A stretch of 42,187 bases of DNA from Neptunomonas sp. (GTDB lineage: Bacteria; Pseudomonadota; Gammaproteobacteria; Pseudomonadales; Balneatricaceae), in NCBI RefSeq assembly GCF_016744175.1, contig NZ_JADGEV010000035.1, positions 1 through 42,187 on the forward strand, written 5' to 3'. Under the pieces are notes generated by a model. That model did not search any database, was not told where the DNA came from, and worked only from the letters and a program-made list of their open reading frames with translations. Numbering within the stretch: the stretch's first letter is position 1; the number at the start of each line of letters is the position of its first letter. Position numbers and translations under genes: made by a program. Shown here in pieces: positions 2,135-20,657 of the stretch.

Positions 2135-3313
2135 TTAGAAAGCATCGCCAGGAATACGCACCCAGCCTTCCATTAGCACACGAGCGCTACGGCTCATAAT
2201 GGCTTTAGTCGCTGTCCACTCGCCATTAACTTTTGCAGCTTCAGCACCTACTTTTAAAGTACCTGAAGGATGGCCAAACGTGACAGCATTGCGATTTCCA
2301 CCACCCGCAGCAATATTGACTAATGTACCGGGAATAGCAGCCGCTGTACCAATAGCAACAGCCGCCGTGCCCATCATAGCATGGTGTAATTTACCCATAG
2401 AAAGTGCACGAACAGCCACATCAATATCATCAGTGGTGACTTGCTTTCCACTAGAAGAAACATAGTTTTGTGCAGGTGCGCAAAAAGCGACCTTAGGTGT
2501 ATGTTGGCGAGCAACCGCTTCTGATATGTCTTTAATAAGACCCATGCGGACAGCTCCGTAGGCCCTTATGGTCTCAAAGCGCTCTAGTGCCACCGGGTCG
2601 CCATTAATAGCCTCTTGAAGCTCAGTTCCATTGTAACCAATTTCATCTGCGTTAAGGAAAATGGTAGGGATGCCTGCATTAATCATCGTTGCTTTAAACG
2701 TACCAACGCCCGGGACGTCAAGATCATCAACGAGGTTGCCAGTAGGAAACATAGCCCCATCACCATCTGCCGGGTCCATAAACTCAACTTGAACTTCTGC
2801 TGCAGGAAACGTCACACCATCCAGCTCAAAATCACCTGTTTCTTGCACTTCACCATTAGTGATAGGCACATGAGCAATAATTGTTTTCTTAATATTTGCC
2901 TGCCAAATCCTAACAATACACACGCCATTTTCAGGAATGCGGTTTGCATCAACCAAACCACCACTAATAGCAAATGCACCTACCGCCGCTGTTAGATTAC
3001 CGCAGTTACCACTCCAATCTACAAAAGCTCTATCTATAGCTACTTGACCAAACAGATAATCGACATCATGTTCAGGTTGGTTACTCTTATCTAGAATAAC
3101 TGTTTTACTTGTACTCGACGTAGCTCCGCCCATTCCATCAGTTTGCTTACCATATGGGTCTGGAGAACCGATAACGCGCATAAGTATATTATCGCGCGCA
3201 GCACCAGGTACCTGAGCAGCTTCAGGAAGGTCCTGGCGGCGAAAAAACACACCTTTACTCGTTCCACCGCGGATATAGGTAGCAGGAATTTTAATTTGAG
3301 GTACTTGCGACAT
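2135..3313 (-). CDS. prpF: PrpF, methylaconitate isomerase (AcnD accessory protein)
   Basis: PrpF is a cytosolic two-domain isomerase of the diaminopimelate-epimerase-like fold. It is required with AcnD to turn 2-methylcitrate into 2-methylisocitrate, probably by shifting the double bond of the methylaconitate made by AcnD. The 392-residue length and the motifs IPATYIRGGTSKGVFF at the N-terminus, SGNCGNLTAAVG near residue 100 and GGGNRNAVTFGHPSGTLKVG near residue 340 are those of the family. It is the last gene of the operon prpR-prpB-prpC-acnD-prpF and is separated from acnD by a 250-base region with a hairpin. The ATG start has a modest AGGA upstream. Confidence 0.93.
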   Translation of the reverse strand: MSQVPQIKIPATYIRGGTSKGVFFRRQDLPEAAQVPGAARDNILMRVIGSPDPYGKQTDGMGGATSSTSKTVILDKSNQPEHDVDYLFGQVAIDRAFVDWSGNCGNLTAAVGAFAISGGLVDANRIPENGVCIVRIWQANIKKTIIAHVPITNGEVQETGDFELDGVTFPAAEVQVEFMDPADGDGAMFPTGNLVDDLDVPGVGTFKATMINAGIPTIFLNADEIGYNGTELQEAINGDPVALERFETIRAYGAVRMGLIKDISEAVARQHTPKVAFCAPAQNYVSSSGKQVTTDDIDVAVRALSMGKLHHAMMGTAAVAIGTAAAIPGTLVNIAAGGGNRNAVTFGHPSGTLKVGAEAAKVNGEWTATKAIMSRSARVLMEGWVRIPGDAF

Positions 3314-3497
3314 AATATAATTGTCCTATCTTATCGGGCGCTAATGATCATCAGCACCACGGTTCAGAAAAATCTTAATAACGTCAACTACGGTTCAGCG
3401 GCATTGCAGCCAACCTACACAGCAGAGGTAATTAAAAGTTTTCTTGTGGTTATTAAAATCGTGTTGCTTAAGTAGACCGGTATGCGCTGCCCCTCAT

Positions 3498-3525
3498 ACA
3501 GTACACAGCAATGACTGTGTACTGT
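3498..3525. repeat. 11 bp perfect hairpin between acnD and prpF
   Basis: ACAGTACACAG (3498-3508) and CTGTGTACTGT (3515-3525) form an 11 bp stem with a six-base loop, 39 bases after the acnD stop codon. No T-run follows on either strand, so it does not look like a simple terminator. It may be an mRNA-stabilising or processing element that sets different levels of AcnD and PrpF, or a protein-binding palindrome. The rest of the 250-base gap shows nothing recognisable. Confidence 0.6.
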
Positions 3526-3563
3526 TTGAAGACAAAACAACACTTACCGATCGTATGTAATGC

Positions 3564-6173
3564 TTAAACGGTTGCTTCTAAGAAATCCTGAGCAAAACGT
3601 TGTAGTACACCACCGGCGTTGTACACATTCACTTCAGCTGCAGTATCCAAACGACAAGTCATGGGCACTTTAACTGTTTCACCATTGGCACGATTAATGA
3701 TGACGGTAAGCTCTGCACGAGGAGAGACATCGCCTTCTACATCAAAGGTTTCTGTACCATCAATCGCGTAAGTTTTACGTGTTTCACCCTCTTTAAATTG
3801 AAGTGGCAATACACCCATACCAACAAGGTTCGTACGGTGAATACGCTCAAAGCCTTCAGCCATGATCGCTTCAACACCTGCTAGACGTACACCTTTTGCA
3901 GCCCAATCACGTGATGAGCCCTGACCATAGTCAGCACCCGCAACGATAATTAACGGCTGCTTACGCTCCATGTAGGTTTCAATCGCTTCCCACATGCGGC
4001 TTTCTTGGCCTTCTGGTTCAATACGCGCCAACGACCCCTGCTTAACATCACCTTTTTCATCAAGGCACATTTCGTTTAGCAGTTTAGGGTTAGCAAACGT
4101 TGCACGCTGTGCCGTTAGGTGATCACCTCGATGTGTTGCATAAGAGTTGTAATCTTCTTCTGGCAAGCCCATTTTGGCGCAATATTCACCTGCAGCACTT
4201 GATGCTTGAATTGCATTTGATGGAGACAAGTGATCAGTTGTGATGTTATCGCCAAGTACAGCCAATGGACGCATACCTTTCATCGTACGCTCACCTGCTA
4301 AAGCACCTTCCCAATAAGGAGGACGACGGATGTAAGTAGTCTGTGGACGCCAGTCATATAGCGGACTTGCAGATTTCTCTACTGCTCCTAAGTCAAACAT
4401 TGGGATGTAAACTTGGCTAAACTGCTCAGGTTTAACGGCCTTCGCAACAATCGCATCGATCTCTTCATCACTAGGCCAAATATCTTTCAGAGTGATTGGA
4501 TTACCGTCTTTATCATTACCCAATACATCTTTTTCAATATCAAAACGTATCGTACCGGCAATCGCATAAGCGACAACTAGCGGAGGCGAAGCCAAGAACG
4601 CTTGCTTTGCATGCGGGTGAATACGGCCGTCAAAGTTACGGTTACCAGAAAGCACCGCTGTAGAGTACAAATCACGATCGATGATCTCTTTCTGAATAAC
4701 AGGATCCAATGCGCCACTCATGCCATTACACGTAGTACAGGCATAACCAACAATACCGAAACCTAGTTGTTCCATCTCAGACAACAAACCCGCTTCTTCT
4801 AAATACAACTTGGCCACTTTAGAGCCTGGCGCAAATGACGACTTAACCCAAGGCTTACGAACAAGGCCTAATTCGTTTGCTTTCTTAGCGACTAAACCTG
4901 CTGCCACTACGTTACGTGGATTAGAGGTGTTAGTACACGAAGTGATCGCGGCGATAATTACCGCGCCATCAGGCATCAAACCATCAGCTTCTTCAACCTT
5001 AGCCGCAGCCAACATGTCGTCACTGGCGATACCGCGCTCATTTAGCGCAGACGTTGGTAGACGGCGGTGCGGGTTCGACGGACCAGCCATGTTGCGGACA
5101 ACAGTCGACAGATCAAACTCAAGAACACGCTCATATTCAACACTTTCTAGATCATCTGCCCACAAACCTGTCAGTTTGGCATACTGCTCAACAAGAGCAA
5201 CTTGCTCAGGCTCACGCCCCGTCAGTTTCAAATAGTCGATGGTCTGCTCGTCAATATAGAACATACCCGCAGACGCACCAAACTCAGGCGTCATATTGGA
5301 GATAGTGGCACGGTCACCGATCGTTAGGTTTTTAGCACCCTCACCAAAGAACTCTAGGTAAGCAGAAACAACTTTCTGGTTACGTAAAAACTCGGTGATA
5401 GCCAATACGATATCTGTAGCAGTAATGCCAGGCTGGCGCTTACCCGTAAGCTTTACACCAATGATGTCCGGTAGGCGCATCATGGACGGTAGGCCCAGCA
5501 TAACGGTTTCAGCTTCAAGTCCGCCAACACCAATCGCAACAACACCTAACGCATCAACATGTGGCGTGTGAGAGTCAGTACCGACACAAGTATCTGGGTA
5601 AGCAACACCATCACGCGCTTGAATAACTGGGGACATTTTCTCCAAGTTAATCTGGTGCATGATGCCGTTACCAGCAGGGATTACATCGACATTATCGAAT
5701 GCAGTCTTGCACCACTCGATAAAGTGAAAACGATCATCGTTACGACGGTCTTCAATTGAACGGTTCTTTTCAAATGCATCTGGATCAAAACCTGCCGCTT
5801 CAACAGCAAGGGAGTGATCAACGATTAACTGTGTAGGCACAACAGGGTTAACTTTAGAAGGGTCACCACCTTGATCAGCAATCGCATCACGCAAACCAGC
5901 CAAATCAACCAAGGCTGTTTGTCCTAAAATATCATGACAAACAACACGTGCCGGATACCAAGGAAAATCCAGTTCACGTTTAAATTCGATAAGCTGTTTT
6001 AGTGAATCAGTTAATGCTTCAGGCTCACAGCGGCGAACCAGCTGCTCAGCCAATACGCGGGAAGTATAAGGTAGTTTTGCATAAGATCCAGGTTGAATCT
6101 CTTCGATTGCTGCACGCGTATCGAAGTAATCTAGCTTTGTACCTGGTAATGATTTGCGGTATTCAGTATTCAT
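3564..6173 (-). CDS. acnD: AcnD, Fe/S-dependent 2-methylcitrate dehydratase (2-methylaconitate-forming)
   Basis: AcnD is an aconitase-family [4Fe-4S] enzyme that dehydrates 2-methylcitrate to a methylaconitate isomer in propionate breakdown. With PrpF it replaces PrpD, which is absent here. The 869-residue protein shows the aconitase layout: substrate motif near residues 195-205 (CVGTDSHTPHVDALG), cluster cysteines in ITSCTNTSNP (about 420) and YACTTCNGMSG (about 485), and the mobile swivel domain at the C-terminus with GADYGQGSSRDWAAKG. The position between prpC and prpF supports AcnD over the housekeeping aconitase AcnA. GGAG stands about ten bases before the ATG. A terminator-like hairpin separates it from prpC, so it may be expressed at a lower level or from its own promoter. 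Confidence 0.93.
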   Translation of the reverse strand: MNTEYRKSLPGTKLDYFDTRAAIEEIQPGSYAKLPYTSRVLAEQLVRRCEPEALTDSLKQLIEFKRELDFPWYPARVVCHDILGQTALVDLAGLRDAIADQGGDPSKVNPVVPTQLIVDHSLAVEAAGFDPDAFEKNRSIEDRRNDDRFHFIEWCKTAFDNVDVIPAGNGIMHQINLEKMSPVIQARDGVAYPDTCVGTDSHTPHVDALGVVAIGVGGLEAETVMLGLPSMMRLPDIIGVKLTGKRQPGITATDIVLAITEFLRNQKVVSAYLEFFGEGAKNLTIGDRATISNMTPEFGASAGMFYIDEQTIDYLKLTGREPEQVALVEQYAKLTGLWADDLESVEYERVLEFDLSTVVRNMAGPSNPHRRLPTSALNERGIASDDMLAAAKVEEADGLMPDGAVIIAAITSCTNTSNPRNVVAAGLVAKKANELGLVRKPWVKSSFAPGSKVAKLYLEEAGLLSEMEQLGFGIVGYACTTCNGMSGALDPVIQKEIIDRDLYSTAVLSGNRNFDGRIHPHAKQAFLASPPLVVAYAIAGTIRFDIEKDVLGNDKDGNPITLKDIWPSDEEIDAIVAKAVKPEQFSQVYIPMFDLGAVEKSASPLYDWRPQTTYIRRPPYWEGALAGERTMKGMRPLAVLGDNITTDHLSPSNAIQASSAAGEYCAKMGLPEEDYNSYATHRGDHLTAQRATFANPKLLNEMCLDEKGDVKQGSLARIEPEGQESRMWEAIETYMERKQPLIIVAGADYGQGSSRDWAAKGVRLAGVEAIMAEGFERIHRTNLVGMGVLPLQFKEGETRKTYAIDGTETFDVEGDVSPRAELTVIINRANGETVKVPMTCRLDTAAEVNVYNAGGVLQRFAQDFLEATV

Positions 6174-6296
6174 TGCGTCTGAACTCCATTAAGTATGGTT
6201 CAGAGAGACGGGGCAGGCGTATTAGTGAATGGAAGCCAACCCAACCTTTTCTAAAGCAAAATTAATTATGGCCAAGCAGATATCTGTTAGCGCATA

Positions 6297-6327
6297 AAAA
6301 CTGTAAGGGCTGAAGAATCAGCCCTTA
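6297..6327 (-). terminator. Terminator-like hairpin between prpC and acnD
   Basis: GTAAGGGCTGA (6303-6313) and TCAGCCCTTAC (6318-6327) form a perfect stem around a loop of about four bases, ten bases after the prpC stop codon. On the minus strand it is followed by AGTTTTTATG. It has the form of an intrinsic terminator inside the operon and would reduce readthrough from prpBC into acnD-prpF. Confidence 0.75.
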
Positions 6328-6336
6328 CTCGATCAA

Positions 6337-7467
6337 TCAACCACGGTTTTCGATAGCAACCCACTGCGCAGATTCAGGACCTGTGTAGTCAGCACTTGGA
6401 CGAATAATCCGGTTATTTGCACGCTGTTCCATCACATGGGCCGTCCAACCAGCCGCACGTGAACAAACAAAGATCGGCGTAAATAATTTGGTAGGAATAC
6501 CCATGAAGTTGTAAGCAGAAGCATGGAAAAAATCAGCATTACAAAAGAGTTTTTTCTCACGCCACATTATTGCTTCAACACGCTCAGAAACTGCATATAA
6601 GCTAGAGTCGCCAACTTGTTCAGATAATTTCTTAGACCATTCTTTAATAATGGCATTACGTGGATCAGACTCACTATAGATTGCGTGCCCAAATCCCATA
6701 ATTTTGTCTTTGCGCTCTAACATACCCATGATTTTAGCTTCTGCTTCATCAGGAGTTTTCCAGTTTTCAATCATATCCATCGCAGCTTCGTTCGCGCCAC
6801 CATGAAGTGGGCCGCGTAGCGAACCAATCGCTGCCGTTACGCAGCTATGAATATCCGACAACGTAGAAGCGCAAACACGTGCAGTAAACGTCGATGCATT
6901 AAACTCATGCTCAGCATACAAAATCAGAGAAGCATGCATTACATCGACATGCAAAGGCTCTGGTTTTTTATCGTGTAGCGTCCATAAAAACTGCTCAGCG
7001 ATAGAATCGGCGCCGGTATTTTCGTCAATGCGCTTGCCGTTATGGCTGAAGTTGTACCAGTAATTGATCAAGCCTGGGAATACGGCCAGCATACGATCAA
7101 TATGATCAAGCTGATCAGTAAAGCTCAGCTCAGTTTCTAGGTTACCCAGCATTGAGCAACCCGTACGCATAACATCCATTGGATGTGCATCCGCAGGAAT
7201 CTGTTCCAAAACAGTTTTCAATGCTGCTGGTAATGTACGCATGCCTTTTAGACGTGCTTTATATGCATCTAGCTCTGCTTGTGTTGGCAAAGCGCCGTAC
7301 AGTAACAGATATGCAACTTCTTCAAATTGTGCTTTATCAGCCAGCTCTTTAATGTCGTACCCACGATAGGTCAGACCTGCACCGGTTTGCCCCACAGTAC
7401 AGAGTGCAGTAACACCAGCAGACTGACCACGCAGGCCCGCACCACTTAGTTTTTTTGCTTCTGCCAT
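6337..7467 (-). CDS. prpC: PrpC, 2-methylcitrate synthase
   Basis: PrpC condenses propionyl-CoA with oxaloacetate to 2-methylcitrate, the entry step of the cycle. The 376-residue length is that of the short citrate synthase family. Catalytic motifs are present: GPLHGGANEAAM near residue 220, GFGHAIYSESDPR near residue 258, and the C-terminal region NADFFHASAYNFMGIPTKLF with its arginine-containing partner VCSRAAGW. Assignment as methylcitrate rather than citrate synthase rests on length and on the prpB and acnD neighbours. AGGAG stands about eight bases before the ATG. Confidence 0.94.
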   Translation of the reverse strand: MAEAKKLSGAGLRGQSAGVTALCTVGQTGAGLTYRGYDIKELADKAQFEEVAYLLLYGALPTQAELDAYKARLKGMRTLPAALKTVLEQIPADAHPMDVMRTGCSMLGNLETELSFTDQLDHIDRMLAVFPGLINYWYNFSHNGKRIDENTGADSIAEQFLWTLHDKKPEPLHVDVMHASLILYAEHEFNASTFTARVCASTLSDIHSCVTAAIGSLRGPLHGGANEAAMDMIENWKTPDEAEAKIMGMLERKDKIMGFGHAIYSESDPRNAIIKEWSKKLSEQVGDSSLYAVSERVEAIMWREKKLFCNADFFHASAYNFMGIPTKLFTPIFVCSRAAGWTAHVMEQRANNRIIRPSADYTGPESAQWVAIENRG

Positions 7468-7488
7468 CTGGTTTCTCCTTCTGTCATT

Positions 7489-7567
7489 GGGAGGCTTCGC
7501 CTCCCGTACCAGTTTTTCTAATTATTTAATTTTAATCGTACGATAAAGCTCTTAACAAATTTGTTAA
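7489..7567. repeat. Three palindromes in the prpB-prpC spacer
   Basis: Within 100 bases lie a hairpin GGGAGGC/GCCTCCC (7489-7505, loop TTC), the 10 bp palindrome ATCGTACGAT (7535-7544) and the 16 bp perfect palindrome TTAACAAATTTGTTAA (7552-7567), which ends at the prpB stop codon. None is followed by a T-run on the minus strand. They may act on mRNA processing or stability, or one may bind a protein. Confidence 0.5.
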
Positions 7568-8458
7568 TTACTTGTTTTTACCTTCAGCAAAAAGCGCATC
7601 TAGCTTCTGCTCAAAATCATGATAGTTTAAGAAATCATATAGCTCCATACGCGTTTGCATCGTATCAACTACTGCTTTTTGATCACCATCACGCAGTAAT
7701 GCTTCATAAACATTCAGTGCTGCTTTATTCGCCGCACGGAAAGCTGAAAGCGGGTACAGCACCATAGAAGCACCATTTGCCACAAGCTCTTCTGTGTTAA
7801 ACAACGGCGTAGCACCGAATTCAGTAATATTCGCGAGTAAATGAGCTCCGTTAATACCATCTGCAAACGCTTTGTAATCTTCTAGTGTGTGAACAGCTTC
7901 TGCGAAGATACCGTCAGCACCTGCTTCAAGACATGCTTGAGCACGATCTACTGCAGAGTTTAAACCTTCCATTTGGAAAGCATCAGTACGTGCAATAATG
8001 AAAAAGTCATCATCTGTTTTCGCATCAACAGCAGCTTTAACGCGATCAACCATTTCCTGAGAAGAAACGATTTCTTTATTTGGACGATGGCCGCAACGCT
8101 TTTGTGCAATCTGATCTTCTATGTGAACAGCAGCAGCGCCGGCTTTAGTCATCTCTTTAACTGTGCGAGAAATGTTAAACGCCCCACCCCAGCCTGTATC
8201 GATGTCAACTAATAAAGGAGTTTCAACAGCACTACTGATACGACGAACATCTTCCAGAACATCATTCATGGAGGTCATACCCAAATCAGGCAAACCATAA
8301 GAAGTATTGGCAACACCACCACCCGAAAGGTAGATAGCTTTATGGCCAACACGCTCAGCCATCATCGCATGGTACGCATTAGTGGTGCCTACAATTTGAA
8401 GTGGTTTTGCTTCTAATAGCGCTTTGCGGAATCGACCGCCTGCAGTAAGTTTAGCCAT
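7568..8458 (-). CDS. prpB: PrpB, 2-methylisocitrate lyase
   Basis: PrpB cleaves 2-methylisocitrate to pyruvate and succinate, the last step of the methylcitrate cycle. It belongs to the isocitrate lyase/PEP mutase superfamily. The 296-residue protein has the expected [18 protein letters not shown] near residue 45, the metal-site aspartates in DIDTGWGG near residue 85, and the catalytic cysteine loop in [10 protein letters not shown] near residue 120. The ATG at 8458-8456 lies inside the end of the regulator gene (8-base overlap), with AAGGGG just upstream, so translation of the two is probably coupled. Confidence 0.95.
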
Positions 8459-9146
8459 TTTTTTCCCCTTTGAGGTCAGTTGCGGTGTTCAGCTTCTCTT
8501 CTATGTTCTTACGCGCAGCACTAATATGCCGGCGCATTAGAATCTCTGCTAGTTCAGGATCCCTCGCCTCAATAGCATCGACAATCTGACGATGCTCCTT
8601 GAGTGCGCGCTTGGGACGTGAACTCGATACACTGAATTGATAGCGGTACATACGTACCAAGTGATACAGGTCACTACCGAGCAGTTCCAACAATGTTTCA
8701 TTTTTGCTGCCCTGCACGATTCGGTAATGAAAATCTAGGTCGCCTTCCTTTTGAAAATACGACTGTCCATCCAGTTGCGTTATTGACCGATCATGTTCGT
8801 CTAATAATGATCGCAAACGAGCAATTTCTTCATCTGGCATAAACTCCGCAGCCATGCGGCAAGCCATACCTTCTAAAGCCTCTCGAACCCGATAGATTTC
8901 GATTAACTCTTTTTCATTAAGTTTTACAACTCGAGCACCAATATGAGGCTTACGTTCAATTAGGCGCAATGCCTCTAGCCTACGCATTGCTTCGCGCAAC
9001 GGACCGCGACTAATGCCATAGATACGAGCCAATTCTGGTTCACTTATCTTTTGCCCAGGAGGAAAGTCTCCTACAACAATGGCATTGATAATTTGCTCAC
9101 ACACTTTGTCAGCGAGTGTTCGGCTTTCTATCGGTGCTTCATTCAT
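8451..9146 (-). CDS. prpR: GntR/FadR-family (FCD) regulator of the methylcitrate operon
   Basis: The protein has an N-terminal GntR winged helix ([32 protein letters not shown]) and a C-terminal FCD ligand-binding domain with the usual helix carrying [16 protein letters not shown]. It is the first gene of the prp operon and probably its autoregulator. It is not related to the sigma-54 activator called PrpR in E. coli. I chose the ATG at 9146 (231 residues). An upstream TTG at 9191 would add 15 residues, but it lies within the palindrome ATTGTCGACAAT (9181-9192), which looks like the operator. Neither start has a strong ribosome binding site. Its ligand is likely 2-methylcitrate or a related metabolite, which is inference. 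Confidence 0.85.
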
Positions 9147-9180
9147 ATTTTCATATCTGCCATTAACAATCAGTTTTTGG

Positions 9181-9192
9181 ATTGTCGACAAT
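9181..9192. promoter_or_regulatory. Candidate PrpR operator (12 bp perfect palindrome)
   Basis: ATTGTCGACAAT is a perfect palindrome 14 bases downstream of the predicted -10 of the prp operon, a position suited to repression. FCD-type GntR proteins commonly bind short palindromes of the TTGT..ACAA kind. A near-identical copy lies before the alpha/beta hydrolase gene, and a weaker 8/12 match lies at 9253-9264, upstream of the -35. Confidence 0.6.
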
Positions 9193-12394: not shown

Positions 12395-12901
12395 TTAGGA
12401 ATAAAGCGCGCCATCTAACTCTAAGTACGTAAGATAGAGCCGCATTTCAAATTCTAGTAGGTGATAGTCCGGCAACATATACTGGCATAATTGATAAAAT
12501 GCTTTGTTATGCTCCTTCTCTTTCAAGTGCGCTAATTCATGAACTACGATCATATTTAAAAAAACTTCAGGTGCTTTTTTAAAGATTACGCTGATACGAA
12601 TCTCATTTTTACTTTTTAGCTTTGCCCCCTGCACTCGGGAAACATAGCTATGCAGCCCTAAAGCATTATTAATCACATGAATTTTACTATCATAAGTCAC
12701 TTTACTAAGTGGAGCCGATTTCTTTAAATATCGATTTTTAAGTGCCATAACATACTCACGCAAATACTTATCATTACTAACGTCATGTACTTGCGGGTAC
12801 TTTTTTAGCAAGAAACCAGCCAATCGTTGTTGGTCAATCATCTGCTGTACTTGCTGTTGCAGCTCAGGAGCATAAGCGGTTAGATACTTTAACGTAGACA
12901 T
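12395..12901 (-). CDS. YgjP-like M48/DUF45 zinc metallopeptidase family protein
   Basis: The 168-residue protein contains the zinc-binding signature HELAHLKEKEHNKAFY near residue 120, with two histidines and a glutamate in HExxH plus the later histidine and tyrosine. This is the layout of the YgjP/DUF45 family. It is soluble with no signal peptide. The physiological substrate is uncertain. Its ATG overlaps the stop of the upstream gene by one base (TAATG), so the pair is translationally coupled and the proteins may work together. Confidence 0.85.
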   Translation of the reverse strand: MSTLKYLTAYAPELQQQVQQMIDQQRLAGFLLKKYPQVHDVSNDKYLREYVMALKNRYLKKSAPLSKVTYDSKIHVINNALGLHSYVSRVQGAKLKSKNEIRISVIFKKAPEVFLNMIVVHELAHLKEKEHNKAFYQLCQYMLPDYHLLEFEMRLYLTYLELDGALYS

Positions 12902-13686
12902 TAAAAAGCACCCCTTTTATATTCCAGCAGCCTTGCTAACACTTCGGGACGTTTATCGATTTGCTTGCATGCTTGCTTATAATCGCTTTTCAAATGTTTT
13001 TTTAGACAAGCAAAGACTTGCGGGTCTGGTATTTCTTTTAAACGGCAGTAAAGCGCTAAAGAAAATACTATTTCACTTTCAGATAAACTCGCTTGCCGAT
13101 TTGCTTGTGCGTTGTAGCAACTACCACACCCCCCTCTAAATGTATAAGCCGAGTTAGCCAACATAACACCGAAACCCATGTAAACAGCGGTGATTTCACT
13201 TCCTTCTATAAGGTAGTCAACCCCGCCAGGCGGAAGCTGATGAGACTGAAGCATCAAATGTTGGGCAATTATATGAGCAAAGCTTGATGATAAATCTTCA
13301 GGCTTCAATGTCTGTTGTCGGTTATAAGTGATATTAAACGGGCACTCATACATAGCGACAGGCAAAACTTCGTCACATGAATTACGCTCGACATCAATTA
13401 GTGCCATTTGTTGAACAGGCAAGTTTTCAAATACTTCCGGTGATTGAAGTCTGAAAGGCCAATGCTCTAGCCCGGCATATTTCAGCGTATGCCTGAATAT
13501 ATTCTCCGCTTTAGCATGAACACTATCGACACTCCCTGGAAAAAATTCATTAGTGGGCTGTATTAATTGGCTACGTTGAAAAAACTCTTTTTTATCAAAA
13601 TTTTGTATGGCCCACTCAAATGTATCGTAAATCCAATCAGCACTTGATGTTTCAATGAGTGGGCGATATTTAAAAATAGATAGCAT
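12901..13686 (-). CDS. Conserved-looking protein of unknown function (261 residues)
   Basis: I do not recognise this family. The protein is soluble, without signal peptide or membrane helix. Two features stand out: a helix with HIIAQHLMLQSHQLPPGGVDYLIEGSE around residues 135-160, containing an HxxxxH spacing, and a glycine/cysteine cluster TFRGGCGSCYNAQANRQASLSE around residues 182-203 following a hydrophobic segment (AVYMGFGVMLANSA). The histidines, acidic residues and CGSC motif could bind metal, but no known active site can be assigned. It is translationally coupled (TAATG) to the YgjP-like metallopeptidase gene, and the two precede yacL in one direction. A role connected with that peptidase is an inference from position only. 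Confidence 0.85.
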   Translation of the reverse strand: MLSIFKYRPLIETSSADWIYDTFEWAIQNFDKKEFFQRSQLIQPTNEFFPGSVDSVHAKAENIFRHTLKYAGLEHWPFRLQSPEVFENLPVQQMALIDVERNSCDEVLPVAMYECPFNITYNRQQTLKPEDLSSSFAHIIAQHLMLQSHQLPPGGVDYLIEGSEITAVYMGFGVMLANSAYTFRGGCGSCYNAQANRQASLSESEIVFSLALYCRLKEIPDPQVFACLKKHLKSDYKQACKQIDKRPEVLARLLEYKRGAF

Positions 13687-13793: not shown

Positions 13794-14336
13794 TTACTCC
13801 GTAAGCTTAATCGCCTGATAAACAGAAAACTTGATAGAATCACTCCAATAATTATCTGCAAACCCCGCTTTACGCTTCAAGTGCACTATAAAATCTCGAA
13901 CATTGGGTAAAACTTCCCATACGGCAGGCAAAAATGTCGCTCTATGAGAACCATCTTCTAATAGCAAGCCATCAATGCCAGGACGTATTTTATCTATCAA
14001 ATCCTGTTCACTATCAATACTTAGTAACAATGCAGGCGTGATGACTGAAATTTCTATTTTCACACGGCCCAACTCGTCCATATCTAATGGAGGAAACCTA
14101 GGATCATTAAGCGCTGCACTATAGGCATTTTCCCACACATCCACAGTTAAAGGGCGACTGGCCTCAAGTGATCCAATACACCCACGTAAACTCCCGTTCA
14201 ATGACAGTGTCACAAAGCAAGCGCCTAGTTCCTCTTGATCCAAGCTAGTGGGGCGCTGCTCTCCCCCTCCAATTACCCCCTGTGTAATAGACGCTCGCGC
14301 ACATGCTAATAATCTCGTCGTCTCTTCTGCATTCAT
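13794..14336 (-). CDS. amrA: AMMECR1-domain protein (AmmeMemoRadiSam system protein A)
   Basis: The AMMECR1 fold is recognised by CFVTLSLNGSLRGCIGSLEA near residue 50, followed by NAYSAALNDPRFPPLDMDELG and VKIEISVITP, with a C-terminal block FLPAVWEVLPNVRDFI and LKRKAGF. I place the start at the ATG at 14336, one base after the stop of the Memo gene, which gives 180 residues and starts MNAEETTRLL. Longer frames from 14399 run back into the Memo gene. Biochemical function is unknown. An RNA or nucleotide modification role has been proposed for the family from comparative genomics. It forms a tight pair with the Memo gene. Confidence 0.9.
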   Translation of the reverse strand: MNAEETTRLLACARASITQGVIGGGEQRPTSLDQEELGACFVTLSLNGSLRGCIGSLEASRPLTVDVWENAYSAALNDPRFPPLDMDELGRVKIEISVITPALLLSIDSEQDLIDKIRPGIDGLLLEDGSHRATFLPAVWEVLPNVRDFIVHLKRKAGFADNYWSDSIKFSVYQAIKLTE

Positions 14337-14337
14337 A

Positions 14338-15132
14338 TTAAAAAATACCATAACCTGCATATCCAACGACGCGATCTTTAGCTCCCGCCGTATCACCACT
14401 ATTACATTGAGATAATTTTTTGATAGTGAGATTCTGATGCTTTATCGCCAGAAGCAAGCCATTTAACGCGTTACATCCACATGCCTCGGTAGGTTTTAAA
14501 TCATGGTCAGCATTCATTATTTTAAGATCGGTATGCGCATCAACTTTCTGTGCATTTTTGTAAGAGTGAAAATGACTGAGATCAGTACTGACAACCACCA
14601 ATGTAGTTGGATCAATCAATAAAGGCTCGATAATACAAGCAATATCAGAAACGGCACATTCCCCTACAATAACAGGCACTACCGGGCCATTAATTTGCAG
14701 ATACTGAAGGAAAGGCAGTTGAACTTCTAAGCAATGCTCCTGAGCATGAACCACATCTGATTCGATTACTATCGAGTACTCCAAAAGCGCTTTAATAGCC
14801 TTGCGGTTAACGTCAACATTACCTAATGGCGTGGAGAAATAATCACTTAGGGGAACGGCACACCCCTCTAAAGGGACTCGGTGGTTAGGGCCAAATAAAT
14901 AGATACTATTAAAACTTGAGCATTTCTTAAGAAGCCTATATCCAAGTGCTGCAACGGCACCAGAATAGATATAACCTGCATGAGGCACAATCAATGCCAT
15001 AGGGCTCTGTCGCTGATAGAGCGGCACATTTTCCAGCGGGTTGTCCGGCATTAAATCAGCAAGCACACTGCATAAAGCAGCTTTATCTTCGGGATAGAAA
15101 AGCCCGGCAACAGCGGCAGGTCGAATCTTCAT
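14338..15132 (-). CDS. amrB: Memo-family protein (AmmeMemoRadiSam system protein B)
   Basis: The 264-residue protein belongs to the Memo family, related in fold to extradiol-type dioxygenases. It has PHAGYIYSG (His51), LFGPNHRV (His84), EHCLEVQLPFLQ, STDLSHFHSY and SQCNSGDTAG (Cys243), which correspond to the two histidines and cysteine reported to bind metal in human MEMO1. No transmembrane segment is seen. The stop codon is one base from the AMMECR1 start, so the two are co-translated. The radical SAM partner is divergent, 87 bases away. Human MEMO1 has been linked to metal and redox biology, but the bacterial role is not established. Confidence 0.92.
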   Translation of the reverse strand: MKIRPAAVAGLFYPEDKAALCSVLADLMPDNPLENVPLYQRQSPMALIVPHAGYIYSGAVAALGYRLLKKCSSFNSIYLFGPNHRVPLEGCAVPLSDYFSTPLGNVDVNRKAIKALLEYSIVIESDVVHAQEHCLEVQLPFLQYLQINGPVVPVIVGECAVSDIACIIEPLLIDPTTLVVVSTDLSHFHSYKNAQKVDAHTDLKIMNADHDLKPTEACGCNALNGLLLAIKHQNLTIKKLSQCNSGDTAGAKDRVVGYAGYGIF

Positions 15133-15219
15133 ACGCTACCCTCCCCGACCAATATGTTTTATATTGGCGTTTATGGATACTCTTATCAGTACACTTTAGA
15201 TACTAAACCTGCATTGCTT

Positions 15220-16296
15220 ATGAATCCAGATCAAAGAGAGACTCTTTTCTGGCATCCACTGGATAACAAACGCATTCAGTGCGACCTATGCCCTCATCAC
15301 TGCACATTGAAAGATGGGCAAAGAGGCGTGTGTTATGTTCGTGGCAATGTAAACGGACTGATGCAACTACACACCTATGGTAGATCTAGTGGCTTCTGCA
15401 TTGACCCCATCGAAAAGAAACCACTAAATCACTACCTACCGGGCACACCCGTTCTGTCTTTTGGAACAGCCGGATGTAACCTAGCGTGCAAATTTTGCCA
15501 GAATTGGGATATTAGCAAAGCAAGAGGCATGGATCTCCTTTGCAATAACGCCACTCCCAAACAACTTGCCACAGCGGCCACGGACAATAAGTGTCGCGCT
15601 GTTGCTTTTACTTATAATGACCCTGTCATCTTTTTAGAGTACGCTGAAGATGTCGCCGCCGCATGTAGAGCGGCAGATATAAAGAGTATTGCAGTCACCG
15701 CTGGATATATAAGCGATGCCGCTCGTCCTCGCTTCTTTTCATCTTTTGATGCAGTAAACATTGATTTAAAAGCATTTACCGATCATTTCTACCGGCACAT
15801 TTGCGGCGGGAAACTCAGTACGATACTAGATACACTGATGTACCTTAAGCACGAAACCTCTATTTGGTTTGAAATCACAACGCTGTTAATACCAAACAAA
15901 AATGACTCTAACGAAGAGATTGAAGCGTTATGTAGTTGGGTAAGTAAGAACTTAGGACAAGACGTACCATTACATTTTTCAGCATTTCACCCTGACTGGA
16001 AAATGCAAAATATTCCAGCTACACCACTAGCAACATTATTAAGAGCGCGCAGCATCGCTCTACAAAACCAGATTCGTTATGTATACATTGGAAACATACA
16101 ACACGTGCAAGCCAGTTCTACTTATTGCCACAACTGCAAAACCTTGTTGATTGAGCGTAATGGATACCAGCTAGACAGCTGGTATATCCATGATGGCAAA
16201 TGCGGTCAATGCGAAACAGTCATTCCGGGTATTTTTGGAAAAAACCCAGGTAATTGGGGCCCTAAACGCCAACCCATTTTCATTGATGAAAATTAA
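15220..16296 (+). CDS. amrS: AmmeMemoRadiSam system radical SAM enzyme
   Basis: This radical SAM protein is of the pyruvate-formate-lyase-activating-enzyme-like type. The cluster motif is GTAGCNLACKFCQNW (Cys86, Cys90, Cys93, spacing CxxxCxxC). An N-terminal cysteine set CDLCPHHC (Cys21, 24, 28) with a further Cys38 and a C-terminal zinc-ribbon-like pair (CHNC, CGQC) suggest extra metal or cluster sites. The motif GRSSGFCIDPIEKKPLNHYLPG is typical of the AmrS family. I use the ATG at 15220 (358 residues). The frame is open to an upstream ATG at 15154, but those 22 residues do not resemble the family. It is divergent from the Memo/AMMECR1 pair and its stop overlaps the dusC stop. Its substrate is unknown. 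Confidence 0.9.
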   Translation: MNPDQRETLFWHPLDNKRIQCDLCPHHCTLKDGQRGVCYVRGNVNGLMQLHTYGRSSGFCIDPIEKKPLNHYLPGTPVLSFGTAGCNLACKFCQNWDISKARGMDLLCNNATPKQLATAATDNKCRAVAFTYNDPVIFLEYAEDVAAACRAADIKSIAVTAGYISDAARPRFFSSFDAVNIDLKAFTDHFYRHICGGKLSTILDTLMYLKHETSIWFEITTLLIPNKNDSNEEIEALCSWVSKNLGQDVPLHFSAFHPDWKMQNIPATPLATLLRARSIALQNQIRYVYIGNIQHVQASSTYCHNCKTLLIERNGYQLDSWYIHDGKCGQCETVIPGIFGKNPGNWGPKRQPIFIDEN

Positions 16297-17270
16297 AGCT
16301 CGCGCTCTAGGCAAGCACGTAAATCACCAAGATCATTAATAGTTTTCACGCTAAAAAACAATTTTTCCGCCTCCTCACGCTGAGGGCGCATCATATGCAG
16401 CCATTGCTTTATACGACCATGCACATATTTAGGGGGTAGTTTTTGCTCAACAAATGAAAAATACTCCAGTAAGAGCATAATGATCTGTGACCATGCTGCT
16501 GCCCCCCCGCTTTGGCCAAGCTGATAACTTTTGATCATTAGACCTAACTCGGGGCGTGCAATAAGGCCTCGACCAATCATCACATCGTCACAACCACTGA
16601 GGTCTTTACAGCGTTGATAGTCTTCGCAGTTCCAAACTTCACCATTAGCAACAACGTGTAAATTCACACTCTCTTTTATTCGCCCTATCCACTCCCAATG
16701 AGCAGGTGGTTTATACCCCTCCACCTTGGTCCTTGCATGAACGGCCAAACTATCAGCACCTGCTTCTTGGATAGCAATGGCGTTATCAATTGCTAGTGAC
16801 TTATCCAAGTTTCCTAGCCGCATTTTTGCTGTCACAGGGACATCATCGGGCACCGCTTGCCTGACCATTTTCACTATCTTATGTATTAAGGCTGGTTCAT
16901 CGAGCAGCACCGCACCACCGCGATGTTTATTAACCGTTTTTGATGGACAACCAAAATTCAAATCAATGGCTGGAGCACCCATTTTCGCAGCACTAACAGC
17001 ATTCATCGCTAACAACTCAGGTTCACTTCCTAATAACTGCACAACAACCGGCACGCCAGCAGGTGTTTTTCCTTGATTAGCCAACTCAGGTGCCGATTTC
17101 AAAAACTCTTTCTCAGGCAAAACATAACCGGTAATACGTATGAATTCCGTAACGCACAGATCAACCCCACCTAACTGAGTTATAAGATGGCGCATGGTCG
17201 CATCTACAACCCCTTCCATGGGAGCAAGTATGATTTTACCCGTCTGCGTATTCACTTTATCAGCGTTCAT
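16293..17270 (-). CDS. dusC: tRNA-dihydrouridine synthase DusC-like
   Basis: This FMN-dependent TIM-barrel enzyme reduces uridine to dihydrouridine in the tRNA D-loop. It shows LAPMEGVVDATMRHL, the catalytic cysteine in DLNFGCPSKTVNKHRGGAVLL (Cys108), VTAKMRLG and VANGEVW, followed by the helical tRNA-binding domain with KYVHGRIKQWLHMMRPQ. The MEGVVD start and the 325-residue length point to DusC (position 16) rather than DusA or DusB. It converges with the radical SAM gene, with a four-base overlap in which TTAA supplies both stop codons. Confidence 0.9.
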   Translation of the reverse strand: MNADKVNTQTGKIILAPMEGVVDATMRHLITQLGGVDLCVTEFIRITGYVLPEKEFLKSAPELANQGKTPAGVPVVVQLLGSEPELLAMNAVSAAKMGAPAIDLNFGCPSKTVNKHRGGAVLLDEPALIHKIVKMVRQAVPDDVPVTAKMRLGNLDKSLAIDNAIAIQEAGADSLAVHARTKVEGYKPPAHWEWIGRIKESVNLHVVANGEVWNCEDYQRCKDLSGCDDVMIGRGLIARPELGLMIKSYQLGQSGGAAAWSQIIMLLLEYFSFVEQKLPPKYVHGRIKQWLHMMRPQREEAEKLFFSVKTINDLGDLRACLEREL

Positions 17271-17308: not shown

Positions 17309-17836
17309 ATGCGTCTTTTTATTGCTATAGACCTACCCGACACCGTTCAACAGCAGATATCTCAGCTGTATTGTAATTTCCACGGTGTAAAATGGGCGCC
17401 ACCAGAAAGGCTTCATATCACCTTGGCATTCTTAGGGTCAATCAAAAAGAAGTGGCTTCCGGCACTAAACCAGCAACTAGAAAACATCTCCTTTGAACCG
17501 TTTACATTACATTGTGATCGGTTTGGAAGTTTTCGTAGCGGGGACATCTGGCTAGGTATTAACCCTGAGGAACCAGTAGTGTTACTCCACCAAAAAATTC
17601 TAAGTGCGTTACACGACATTGATATGGGCTTTGAAGGGAGACCTTTTAAACCTCATATTACACTGGCTTACACTCACAAGAGTGACGAGCATTTAGTATT
17701 AAATCTACTCGAAAGCCGTCGAGTATTTGACACCCTGAGTTTTACAGTAGATCACTACAATTTAATAAGCAGCTGGTCAAGACCGACAGGCTCTTTACAT
17801 CGTATTGAAGCAATCTATAGTGCCCAAACTCAATAA
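17309..17836 (+). CDS. thpR: ThpR, RNA 2',3'-cyclic phosphodiesterase (2H family)
   Basis: The 175-residue protein has the two HxTx motifs of the 2H phosphoesterase superfamily: LHITLAFLG (His36, Thr38) and PHITLAYTH (His116, Thr118). ThpR/LigT proteins open 2',3'-cyclic phosphate ends on RNA and can join tRNA halves in vitro, but their cellular target is poorly known. AAGGGA stands about eight bases before the ATG. It is divergent from dusC with 38 bases between and its stop codon abuts the metZ stop with no gap. Confidence 0.93.
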   Translation: MRLFIAIDLPDTVQQQISQLYCNFHGVKWAPPERLHITLAFLGSIKKKWLPALNQQLENISFEPFTLHCDRFGSFRSGDIWLGINPEEPVVLLHQKILSALHDIDMGFEGRPFKPHITLAYTHKSDEHLVLNLLESRRVFDTLSFTVDHYNLISSWSRPTGSLHRIEAIYSAQTQ

Positions 17837-19054
17837 TCAGAGCGAATCTAAACCTCTCTGCATATCAGTGCGAATGTCTTCGATATCTTCGAGGCCTACC
17901 GATAAACGGATTAAGTTTTTCTTAATACCTGCATCGGCTTTCGCCTCATCAGTCATTCGTCCATGAGTTGTCGTTGCCGGATGTGTAATCGTAGATTTCA
18001 CATCACCAAAATTACCCGTAATCGATACTAATTTCGTAGAATCAATAAAACGCCATGCAGCGTCTTGCCCACCGCTTACCTCAAACGATAGCACACCACC
18101 AAAACCGGTCTGCTGCTTTATTGCCAACGTATGTTGAGCGTGACTCTCTAAACCAGTGTAATAAACTCGCTCAACCCCTGGCTGCTGTTGCAACCAAGTG
18201 GCTAACTCTAGCGCACTTTTTGCATGAGCTTCCAAACGGACTTTCAAGGTTTCCAATCCTTTGTGGAACACCCAAGCATTGAATGGACTCATGCATGCTC
18301 CGCCAGTGCGGATAAAACCAAAAACCTCTTCCATAAGAGCATCTGATCCAACAACAACACCTCCAACACATCGTCCTTGGCCATCTAAATACTTAGTCGC
18401 CGAGTGGATAACGATATCAGCACCAGACTTTAACGGCTGCTGGAAGATAGGCGTCAAGAAACAGTTATCAACTGCGACTAAGGCATTATTATTATGTGCA
18501 ATATCAGCTAAAGCTTGGATGTCCGTTAACTCTCCAAGTGGGTTTGAAGGTGTCTCTAAAAACAACAAACGTGTATTTGGCTGTATCGCTGCTTCCCATG
18601 CACTTAAATCTTTAGGATCAACAAAACTAGTGGTAATGCCAGCACGAATAAGATATTTCTCAAATAGCGAAATAGTTGAACCAAAGACGCTGCGTGAGCA
18701 GACAACATGATCGCCCTGCTGTAAAAGAGACAACCCAATACTCAGAATGGCAGCCATGCCTGATGACGTTGCTACTGCTCTTTCAGCGCCTTCTAACGCA
18801 GCCATTCGCTTTTCAAAAGCATTAACGGTTGGGTTAGTAAAGCGTGAATAAATATTGCCTTCTTCATCACCACTAAAACGCGCAGCCGCTTCTCGCGCAC
18901 TTGAGTAAACAAAACTGGATGTAGGGAAAATAACATCGCTATGCTCACCCTCTGACGTCCGCGTTTGTCCCGCCCTAATAGCCAAGGTTGAAAGCCCTGC
19001 ATCTGGCAGTGCGAACTGAATTCTTTCTTCTCGCTCAAAACCTGGTTTAGACAT
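17837..19054 (-). CDS. metZ: MetZ, O-succinylhomoserine sulfhydrylase
   Basis: This PLP-dependent Cys/Met metabolism enzyme makes homocysteine directly from O-succinylhomoserine and sulfide. It has SRFTNPTVNAFEKRMAALEGAE near residue 70, DNCFLTPIFQQPL near residue 196, and the PLP lysine in HSATKYLDGQGR (Lys221). The 405-residue length and the neighbour purF fit MetZ of Pseudomonas-type genomes. Cystathionine gamma-synthase cannot be fully excluded. I prefer the ATG at 19054. A GTG at 19066 would add four residues. It follows purF by 14 bases and is likely co-transcribed with it. Confidence 0.92.
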   Translation of the reverse strand: MSKPGFEREERIQFALPDAGLSTLAIRAGQTRTSEGEHSDVIFPTSSFVYSSAREAAARFSGDEEGNIYSRFTNPTVNAFEKRMAALEGAERAVATSSGMAAILSIGLSLLQQGDHVVCSRSVFGSTISLFEKYLIRAGITTSFVDPKDLSAWEAAIQPNTRLLFLETPSNPLGELTDIQALADIAHNNNALVAVDNCFLTPIFQQPLKSGADIVIHSATKYLDGQGRCVGGVVVGSDALMEEVFGFIRTGGACMSPFNAWVFHKGLETLKVRLEAHAKSALELATWLQQQPGVERVYYTGLESHAQHTLAIKQQTGFGGVLSFEVSGGQDAAWRFIDSTKLVSITGNFGDVKSTITHPATTTHGRMTDEAKADAGIKKNLIRLSVGLEDIEDIRTDMQRGLDSL

Positions 19055-19068
19055 TTTAGAGATCACTC

Positions 19069-20595
19069 TTATGAAATTTCAGTATGAAGATCAGCAGGAG
19101 CTTCATCTTCATGATCGACCGTTTCAGGTACTATTTTAGCTGCATCTTTGCGCTTCTGATCTAAGCGCTCCAAGTAAGGCGTATCAATATCACCTGTTAC
19201 GTAGTAACCATCAAATACTGATGAATCGAAGTCACTGATAGTATCTGAATTACCTTCTGATACAGAATCCTTGAGATCATCCAGTTCCTGAAAGATCATC
19301 CAATCGGCACCTATAGCCTCGCCGATTTCATCAACCGACCGGTTGTGGGCGATAAATTCTTCTGGGGATGGCATATCAATACCATACACATTTGGAAAAC
19401 GAACGGGAGGCGCTGCTGAAGCAAAATATACTTTACGAGCACCCACATCTCTTGCCATCTGAACTATCTGTTTTGATGTCGTTCCACGAACAATCGAGTC
19501 ATCGACCAACATGACAACTTTATCCTTAAACTCAAGCTCGATCGGATTAAGTTTACGACGAACTGAATTATTACGCTGCGTTTGCCCAGGCATTATAAAG
19601 GTACGACCAATATATCGGTTCTTAATAAAACCCTCACGGAATGTAACATTCAAATGCTTTGCCATCTCAAGAGCAGAGGTACGGCTAGTGTCAGGTATTG
19701 GCATAATCACATCAATATCGTGGTCGGGTCGTAAGCTTTTAACTTTTTCAGCAAGCTTAATGCCCATGCGCATACGCGCTTGGTGGACATTAACGTTATC
19801 AATAATAGAGTCTGGTCTAGCTAAATAAACAAATTCAAACAAACAGGGAGTAATCTTAGTGTCTTCTGCGCATTGCTTTGTGAAAACATTACCATCCATA
19901 TCAATGAATATTGCTTCACCTGGTTCAATATCGCGAACACGGGTAAAGCCTGCAATATCCAATGCAACACTTTCAGAAGCGACCATACATTCTTCACCGT
20001 CGGGTGTTGATCGCGTTCCATAAATAAGTGGGCGAATGCCATTGGGGTCACGAAACGCCACTACACCATAGCCAGTAATAACCGCAACAACGGCATAACC
20101 ACCTTTTACTCGCTTATGTACCTTAGAAACTGCTTCGAAAATATCTTCAGGTTCCGGCTTTAATTTTCTCTGGTGCTGCAATTCATGTGCAAACACATTA
20201 AGCAATACTTCAGAGTCAGAAGTTGTGTTGATGTGACGTAAATCTTCACGAAACATTTGCTCGACAAGTTCTTCAGCATTGGTCAAATTGCCATTGTGAG
20301 CCAAAGCGATGCCATAGGGAGAGTTAACGTAGAACGGCTGGGCCTCAGCAGCACTTGAGCTGCCTGCTGTTGGGTAGCGAACATGCCCGATACCCACATT
20401 GCCCATTAAACGTTTCATATGACGTGTGCGAAACACCTCATTAACCAATCCGTTATCCTTACGTAGGAAAAATCGGTTTCCTTCGCAGGTCACCATACCA
20501 GCGGCATCCTGTCCGCGGTGTTGAAGCACAGTCAGCGCATCAAAAATTGTCTGATTAACAAGGGATTTGGCTACTAGCCCAACAATACCGCACAT
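19069..20595 (-). CDS. purF: PurF, amidophosphoribosyltransferase
   Basis: PurF transfers ammonia from glutamine to PRPP in the first committed step of purine synthesis. The N-terminal Ntn-hydrolase glutaminase domain needs Cys as the residue after the initiator Met. I therefore start at the ATG at 20595 ([10 protein letters not shown], 508 residues), not the GTG two codons earlier. GAGG stands eight bases before this ATG. Further landmarks are [23 protein letters not shown], and the PRPP-binding loop [18 protein letters not shown] near residue 365. The C-terminal tail after about residue 450 is acidic. It sits between cvpA and metZ. Confidence 0.97.
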
Positions 20596-20657
20596 GTACA
20601 CTACCTCAAGAGGAATCAGAAAAAACTATTTGATCTTAAATGTAGACCACTGTCTTA

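Follow-up and report, generated by a model that had tools for sequence, protein, structure and literature searches.

A probably complete, ordinary AmmeMemoRadiSam system in Neptunomonas sp. and its one-chain relatives in viral contigs

The three genes of the locus

The locus described here lies in a 42,187-nucleotide stretch of Neptunomonas sp. DNA (Pseudomonadales; Balneatricaceae; contig NZ_JADGEV010000035.1), hereafter called the window, and holds the three genes of the AmmeMemoRadiSam system: those for an AMMECR1-like protein, a Memo-like protein and a radical S-adenosylmethionine (SAM) enzyme. The gene for the AMMECR1-like protein (system protein A) occupies positions 13794..14336 on the reverse strand and encodes 180 amino acids with the motif LRGCIG. 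In profile searches its product scores 181 bits to TIGR04335 (curated cut-off 99) and 142 bits to PF01871. The gene for the Memo-like protein (system protein B; 14338..15132, reverse strand, 264 amino acids) is separated from it by a single base, as the initial annotation had stated. The Memo-like product reaches 233 bits to TIGR04336 (curated cut-off 26) and 156 bits to PF01875. An alternative GTG start of the AMMECR1 gene at 14399 would overlap the 3' end of Memo. The radical SAM gene runs the other way, on the forward strand, from 15220 or 15154 to 16296, and its product scores 584 bits to TIGR04337 (curated cut-off 220) and 52 bits to PF04055. All three products thus pass the curated NCBIfam cut-offs, and the identities first given to them are confirmed.

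The start of the radical SAM gene is ambiguous. Two in-frame ATG codons, at 15220 and 15154, give proteins of 358 and 380 amino acids, and conservation starts only at residue 33. Memo and the radical SAM gene point away from each other across a gap (15133..15219) that is 87 bases long with the former start and 21 bases with the latter. It had been described as an 87-base shared control region. The divergent layout stands, while the length depends on the start that is chosen, and a search of the gap gave no sigma-70-like promoter; the whole region holds 3 such sites against a mean of 8.1 in shuffled sequences.

The radical SAM motif CxxxCxxC is intact, as annotated, and reads CNLACKFC. The additional N-terminal (C43, C46, C50 and C60) and C-terminal (C325, C328, C350 and C353) cysteine sets, numbered from the ATG at 15154, are present as well. 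Both are invariant in an alignment of 24 sequences, comprising the window protein and 23 proteins from genomes of the same order, and again in 36 sequences, comprising the window protein and those of 35 of the 80 named loci introduced below. The first alignment omitted three of the 27 order proteins (those of loci L036, L040 and L054). L036 and L040 carry both sets; the L054 protein, of 304 amino acids, stops before the C-terminal one. With both sets present in 26 of the 27 order proteins, the extra cysteines count as a trait of the radical SAM protein's family. Selenocysteine was considered for six radical SAM paralogs that were reported with one in-frame TGA and was rejected: translation across the TGA revealed it as the normal stop after ...VWT or ...VWA, and the sequence beyond is unconserved.

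Solved structures place two of the proteins further. The radical SAM enzyme shares its core (residues 105-265) with the pyruvate formate-lyase activase PflA, and residues 96-275 match PDB 3c8f. It differs from PflA by the extra cysteine sets at both ends, and it scores 57 bits where the PflA cut-off is 232. The AMMECR1-like protein matches the archaeal-type AMMECR1 structures PDB 1wsc, 1zq7 and 1vaj (E values of 1e-15 to 1e-17), which were deposited as hypothetical proteins.

The window set agrees with AmmeMemoRadiSam (TIGR04335, TIGR04336 and TIGR04337; plasmid records use the gene names amrB and amrS) in its families, its divergent layout and its conserved residues. It deviates in the radical SAM protein, whose 584 bits are the lowest score among the 31 found in a sample of genomes from the bacterial family. 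A tree built from 106 such proteins places it on a long, unsure branch, apart from another member of that family (G037). Beyond the low score and the long branch, nothing unusual was seen in the window set, and the window probably carries a complete, ordinary chromosomal AmmeMemoRadiSam system.

The metal site of the Memo-like protein

The Memo-like protein could be compared with human MEMO1 (PDB 3bcz and 7kq8), which it matches at only about 66 bits when a single sequence is used for the search. In three MAFFT modes, the human residues H49, H81 and C244 align with His51, His84 and Cys218 of the window Memo, and the human residues H131, D189 and H192 with His133, Asp184 and His187. All six columns are uniform in 80 of 80 bacterial Memos, the window protein included. 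In a HMMER alignment, the human ICG stretch pairs with the ACG of the profile.

It had been proposed that the metal ligands would be His51, His84 and Cys243. The two histidines are upheld; the cysteine has to be replaced, since human C244 aligns with Cys218. Of 65 Memos, 41 have Arg at position 243, 17 have Cys there and 7 have another residue. A two-histidine-one-carboxylate site with Asp247 as a ligand was rejected as well, because numbering from His49 makes C244 the cysteine of ICG, which corresponds to Cys218. As judged by alignment, the putative MEMO1-type iron-site residues are complete in the window Memo, with 218 as the predicted cysteine ligand.

For the human protein, iron binding through H49, H81 and C244 and a structural relationship to iron dioxygenases are described in PMC11081632, where the primary molecular function of MEMO1 is also termed unknown.

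Distribution and layout in relatives

The genes were searched in a sample of 115 genomes from the order, with E-value limits of 1e-60 for the radical SAM protein, 1e-15 for Memo and 1e-10 for AMMECR1. The radical SAM protein was found in 26 genomes, and Memo and AMMECR1 in 30 each. Every one of the 26 genomes with the radical SAM protein also has Memo; AMMECR1 is present in 25 of them, G093 being the exception. The earlier statement that the three genes occur together is borne out by their arrangement: the divergent layout of the window, with AMMECR1 and Memo in one direction and the radical SAM gene in the other, is the usual one and is seen in 23 of 27 order loci, the window included. The exceptions are L030, which lacks AMMECR1, and L047, L048 and L054, in which the radical SAM gene stands apart and whose genomes carry the Memo-AMMECR1 pair elsewhere. 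In L047 (7800-9224) and L048 (10404-11831), from two genomes of one genus, the separate radical SAM gene stands behind a gene of 474-475 amino acids, the product of which starts with a cysteine-containing stretch.

The comparison was extended to 107 loci, namely the 27 order loci and 80 named loci. The latter are the best 80 of at least 591 confirmed relatives and are therefore near relatives and not a random draw. The order loci are 5.2-19.9 kb long (18 of the 26 that were fetched reach 15 kb) and the named loci 3.4-21.1 kb (43 of 80 reach 15 kb); short loci test little. According to automatic labels, which are approximate because gene calling is noisy in G+C-rich loci, 50 of the 107 have the three-gene layout of the window, 6 a one-way three-gene operon and 5 another arrangement. 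Memo and the radical SAM gene alone are divergent in 13, and at least 8 have a Memo-AMMECR1 fusion next to the radical SAM gene. The radical SAM gene was labelled as standing alone in 25 loci, a count that partly reflects contig ends and gene-calling losses, as L052, L080 and L082 do have Memo nearby. Five loci from genomes of the phylum (L147, L148, L150, L151 and L152) hold a second, divergent set, composed of a radical SAM gene and a fused Memo-AMMECR1 gene; four of these five genomes also carry a standard radical SAM copy.

Three-domain fusions in viral contigs

A search of IMG/VR with Memo and a further search with AMMECR1 led to two viral contigs that encode Memo, AMMECR1 and the radical SAM protein, in this order, as one open frame. 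The first fusion (L168:4206-6398; IMGVR_UViG_3300028299_000006, a contig of 70,757 bases) has 730 amino acids and scores 168, 143 and 287 bits for the three domains, respectively. The second (L165:10001-12202; IMGVR_UViG_3300024262_001784, 33,689 bases) has 733 amino acids and scores 160, 141 and 255 bits. The two are 59% identical. Both have the same domains and motifs as the window trio: PHAG, TSHK, DHNLE, SSD.SH, CG, LRGCIG, the N-terminal CxxCxxxC and the CxxxCxxC are retained, and the His/His/Cys residues of Memo are intact. They differ from the trio in being one chain and in ending before the C-terminal cysteine part (the profile match ends at 282 of 349).

Just downstream of the L165 fusion lie tRNA-Met, tRNA-Glu and a GOLLD RNA (172.7 bits). 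The L165 contig also shows a homing endonuclease match and encodes a DNA methyltransferase with 57% identity to a methyltransferase of LR756501, the record of a 735-kb phage. An endolysin-like gene lies near the L168 fusion, and the stretch read around it contains no tRNA and no Rfam match. The same 735-kb phage (LR756501.1) encodes an AMMECR1 protein of 182 amino acids (L166:7998-8546; 156 bits to TIGR04335) that is 51.7% identical to the AMMECR1 of L168. When this phage was searched with the two fusions, neither Memo nor the radical SAM protein was matched, and the stretch with its AMMECR1 holds neither a tRNA nor an Rfam match. A further viral contig carries a Memo-AMMECR1 fusion gene (L163:4001-5428) by a recombinase-like gene, named by eye, and a tRNA-His; this is probably the edge of a provirus.

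A plasmid of Segatella hominis shows the same domains in the same order, distributed over two genes, amrB (1,476 bases) and amrS (888 bases). This shared order suggests a Bacteroidota source of the viral fusion. On the same plasmid (L174:1033-2205 and 3411-5828), a gene of the RtcB family lies about 1.2 kb from amrB-amrS.

PHROGs listed no Memo or AMMECR1 family for the two fusions and the phage AMMECR1, the patterns derived from the radical SAM alignment found no relative in the viral contigs, and the window radical SAM protein found none in the phage collection. A search of paper listings and of passages in PMC7162821 and PMC12724379 for a phage-encoded AMMECR1 or trio gave no report, which is not proof of absence. 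PMC12724379 does place a prophage before an AmmeMemoRadiSam gene.

The dusC and thpR neighbourhood

Beyond the trio, the window continues with a dusC-like gene for a tRNA dihydrouridine synthase (16293..17270, reverse strand), which scores 230 bits to PF01207 and 285 bits to NF007838, below the DusC cut-off of 395. It lies tail-to-tail with the radical SAM gene, and the two ends, at 16293 and 16296, overlap. A thpR-like gene for an RNA 2',3'-cyclic phosphodiesterase follows on the forward strand (17309..17836; TIGR02258, 125 bits); a second thpR copy exists in the same genome (G000:C56:11354-11893). Next come, on the reverse strand (17837..20601), metZ for O-succinylhomoserine sulfhydrylase (NF006003, 665 bits) and a purF-like gene named by eye. 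The adjacency of dusC with overlapping ends and the nearby thpR had both been noted before and are confirmed, with dusC scoring below its cut-off.

How far this arrangement reaches was examined in 60 genomes of the bacterial family, of which 31 have the radical SAM gene and 56 have dusC. Of the 31 trio genomes, 23 show the tail-to-tail arrangement of dusC and the radical SAM gene; they represent 6 of the 10 genera that bear the trio, and the other 8 genomes have dusC elsewhere. The thpR gene stands between dusC and metZ in 16 of the 31. The dusC link is therefore deeper than one strain and is an old feature of one bacterial family. Four family genomes that lack the trio were examined: three (L055, L177 and L178) keep dusC together with metZ and purF, with or without thpR, and in L056 dusC is found without metZ and purF.

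Outside the family, no dusC was detected near the trio in the 25 other order loci or in the 80 named loci (an 18-bit match in L076 was not counted). With a 19-sequence model, thpR was found in none of the 25 and in one of the 80, the Burkholderiales locus L117 (80 bits); G302 is a further case. Both have the gene order thpR< ispF< ispD< Memo> AMMECR1> rSAM> (L117:1273-5551, and L206:5829-10078 for G302), so that the trio is divergent from the isoprenoid precursor genes ispD-ispF, with thpR behind them. In the surveyed sets, ispD/ispF were met near the trio in L117 only, that is, in 1 of 80 named, 0 of 27 order and 0 of 31 fetched family loci.

Co-occurrence was compared between genomes with and without the trio, kinship being ignored in all tests. 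Across the order, dusC shows none (16/26 versus 51/89, p = 0.82), and thpR does (20/26 versus 26/89, p = 2e-5). The thpR signal is weaker across the phylum (42/60 versus 122/219, p = 0.054).

A survey of neighbours in the 107 loci gave no general neighbour cluster. The bigger clusters (49, 25 and 16 loci) were set aside by eye as shadow frames of the trio genes. The largest one outside these frames, a response regulator by eye, occurs in 11 loci at varying distances. The cluster rimP-nusA-infB-rbfA-truB-rpsO-pnp lies near the trio in 5 loci, and a gmk-rpoZ-spoT set in 4; in 5 loci the radical SAM gene is followed by an alpha/beta-hydrolase-like gene. All of these names were given by eye.

The initial annotation had used the neighbourhood as an argument for a role in RNA or nucleotide modification and had asked for a survey of its co-occurrence. 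What survives is the conservation within the family; the argument itself is weak. By the annotation's own yardstick, a neighbourhood kept beyond close relatives, dusC fails: it was not found near the trio in the other loci compared, mostly persists without it and does not co-occur with it across the order. For thpR the linkage outside the family is thin, with L117 and G302 as its cases. The simplest reading of the dusC and thpR genes is that they were inherited as neighbours in one family and are no parts of the system; that thpR turns up near the trio in a second setting gives a thin lead.

Other genes of the window were noted in passing. A reverse-strand gene at 12901-13686 encodes a 261-residue protein that contains a CGSCYN motif and matches nothing in Pfam or NCBIfam, and adjoins a short YgjP-like metallopeptidase gene (12395-12901, reverse strand). 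Among the relatives searched, these occur in loci of the same genus only (both in L175, the YgjP-like gene alone in L176). Genes resembling a methylcitrate (prp) cluster, among them one for a GntR-type regulator, lie at 2135-9191; these names were given by eye.

Proposed mechanism and its alternatives

The three proteins most likely form one complex for redox modification. In it, the PflA-related radical SAM protein would start a radical reaction by means of its [4Fe-4S] cluster. Memo would hold Fe(II) at His51, His84 and Cys218, the identity of the metal being taken over from human MEMO1, and AMMECR1 would bind or position the substrate. Complex formation and this division of labour are inferred. 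Joint action of the trio is proposed because the co-occurrence, the layout and the two- and three-protein fusions support it; membership of the families and intact motifs are found in the window sequence itself. In combination with an ordinary system and inherited dusC and thpR neighbours, the single complex is the joint best explanation and is considered probable.

Several observations weigh against it. Four of the 30 Memo genomes of the order (G068, G112, G070 and G108, of which the last two are 86-87% complete) have Memo and AMMECR1 but gave no radical SAM match, so that the three proteins are not strictly obligate together. AMMECR1 is found alone in G009, three of the 26 order genomes with a radical SAM gene (G066, G098 and G084) have it apart from Memo-AMMECR1, and the phage LR756501 carries AMMECR1 as a separate gene. 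The recurrence of thpR in two settings, the block of the family and the ispD-ispF block, is unexplained by pure inheritance. Finally, human MEMO1 displayed no detectable dioxygenase activity on the standard substrates tried, according to PMC11081632.

The substrate is where the readings diverge. In agreement with the initial annotation, no established substrate for the trio was found in the paper listings and passages covered. For the proposed complex, a nucleotide or RNA base and a small metabolite or lipid are held to be equally possible, each falling short of an even chance, and a protein or peptide is rated a little lower. Modification of a tRNA or rRNA base, with the place beside dusC and thpR reflecting a shared job, is a tentative possibility. 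The frequent adjacency in the family, the thpR genes in L117 and G302, the co-occurrence of thpR in the order, the five loci near the rimP-truB cluster and the tRNA genes and GOLLD RNA beside one viral fusion would all suit it, and PMC6393860 lists an archaeal AMMECR1 as linked to a PIN/Zn-ribbon protein. Against it stand the near absence of both genes around the trio outside the family, the lack of co-occurrence for dusC and the fading of the thpR signal in the phylum. The radical SAM gene and dusC run towards each other and hence do not form one operon, and dusC, metZ and purF mostly stay together where the trio is missing. Neither the stretch around the L168 fusion nor that around the phage AMMECR1 has a tRNA or an Rfam match. 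A role with nucleotide bases was reportedly proposed for AmmeMemoRadiSam by Burroughs et al. in 2019, who are also said to have proposed a link to isoprenoids.

Action on a small metabolite or an isoprenoid lipid, which we regard as rather unlikely, would agree with the divergent ispD-ispF genes in L117 and G302 and with the match of Memo to MEMO1, a structural relative of iron dioxygenases according to PMC11081632. Against it, the ispD-ispF link was seen at these loci only, and the most frequent neighbour outside the trio frames, the response regulator, is found in few loci and keeps no fixed distance. A protein or peptide target is unlikely as well, and slightly more so. In its sharpest form, the radical SAM protein would mature Memo or AMMECR1, and Memo-AMMECR1 would be the working enzyme. 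In the order sample Memo-AMMECR1 can lack the radical SAM protein and the reverse was never seen, so that the latter looks like a dependent partner, which keeps maturation alive as a rival. The closest solved structure by sequence is pyruvate formate-lyase activase, and a related radical SAM domain occurs in peptide-processing conflict systems according to PMC7159879. Against maturation, G068 and G112, both without a radical SAM match, show no change in the Memo residues or in LRGCIG, and the three-domain fusions fit joint catalysis equally well. We know of no radical SAM partner linked to human MEMO1.

The viral fusions invite a bolder version of the single-complex reading, in which AmmeMemoRadiSam is one physical enzyme, its sites joined on a single functional unit, and relatives of the largest known phages carry its one-chain form to modify tRNA or other RNA during infection. 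The one-chain fusion is present in the viral sequences. An RNA target for it is a guess, and the proposal as a whole is improbable.

Implications

The window adds one more ordinary member to AmmeMemoRadiSam and cautions against a functional reading of its dusC and thpR neighbourhood. The viral fusion is more interesting than this ordinary set, as one protein would have to be purified in place of three. Memo and AMMECR1 both have human relatives, and since the human iron-binding residues are kept in all of the bacterial Memos compared, the chemistry uncovered by knock-outs in bacteria could apply to the human protein too.

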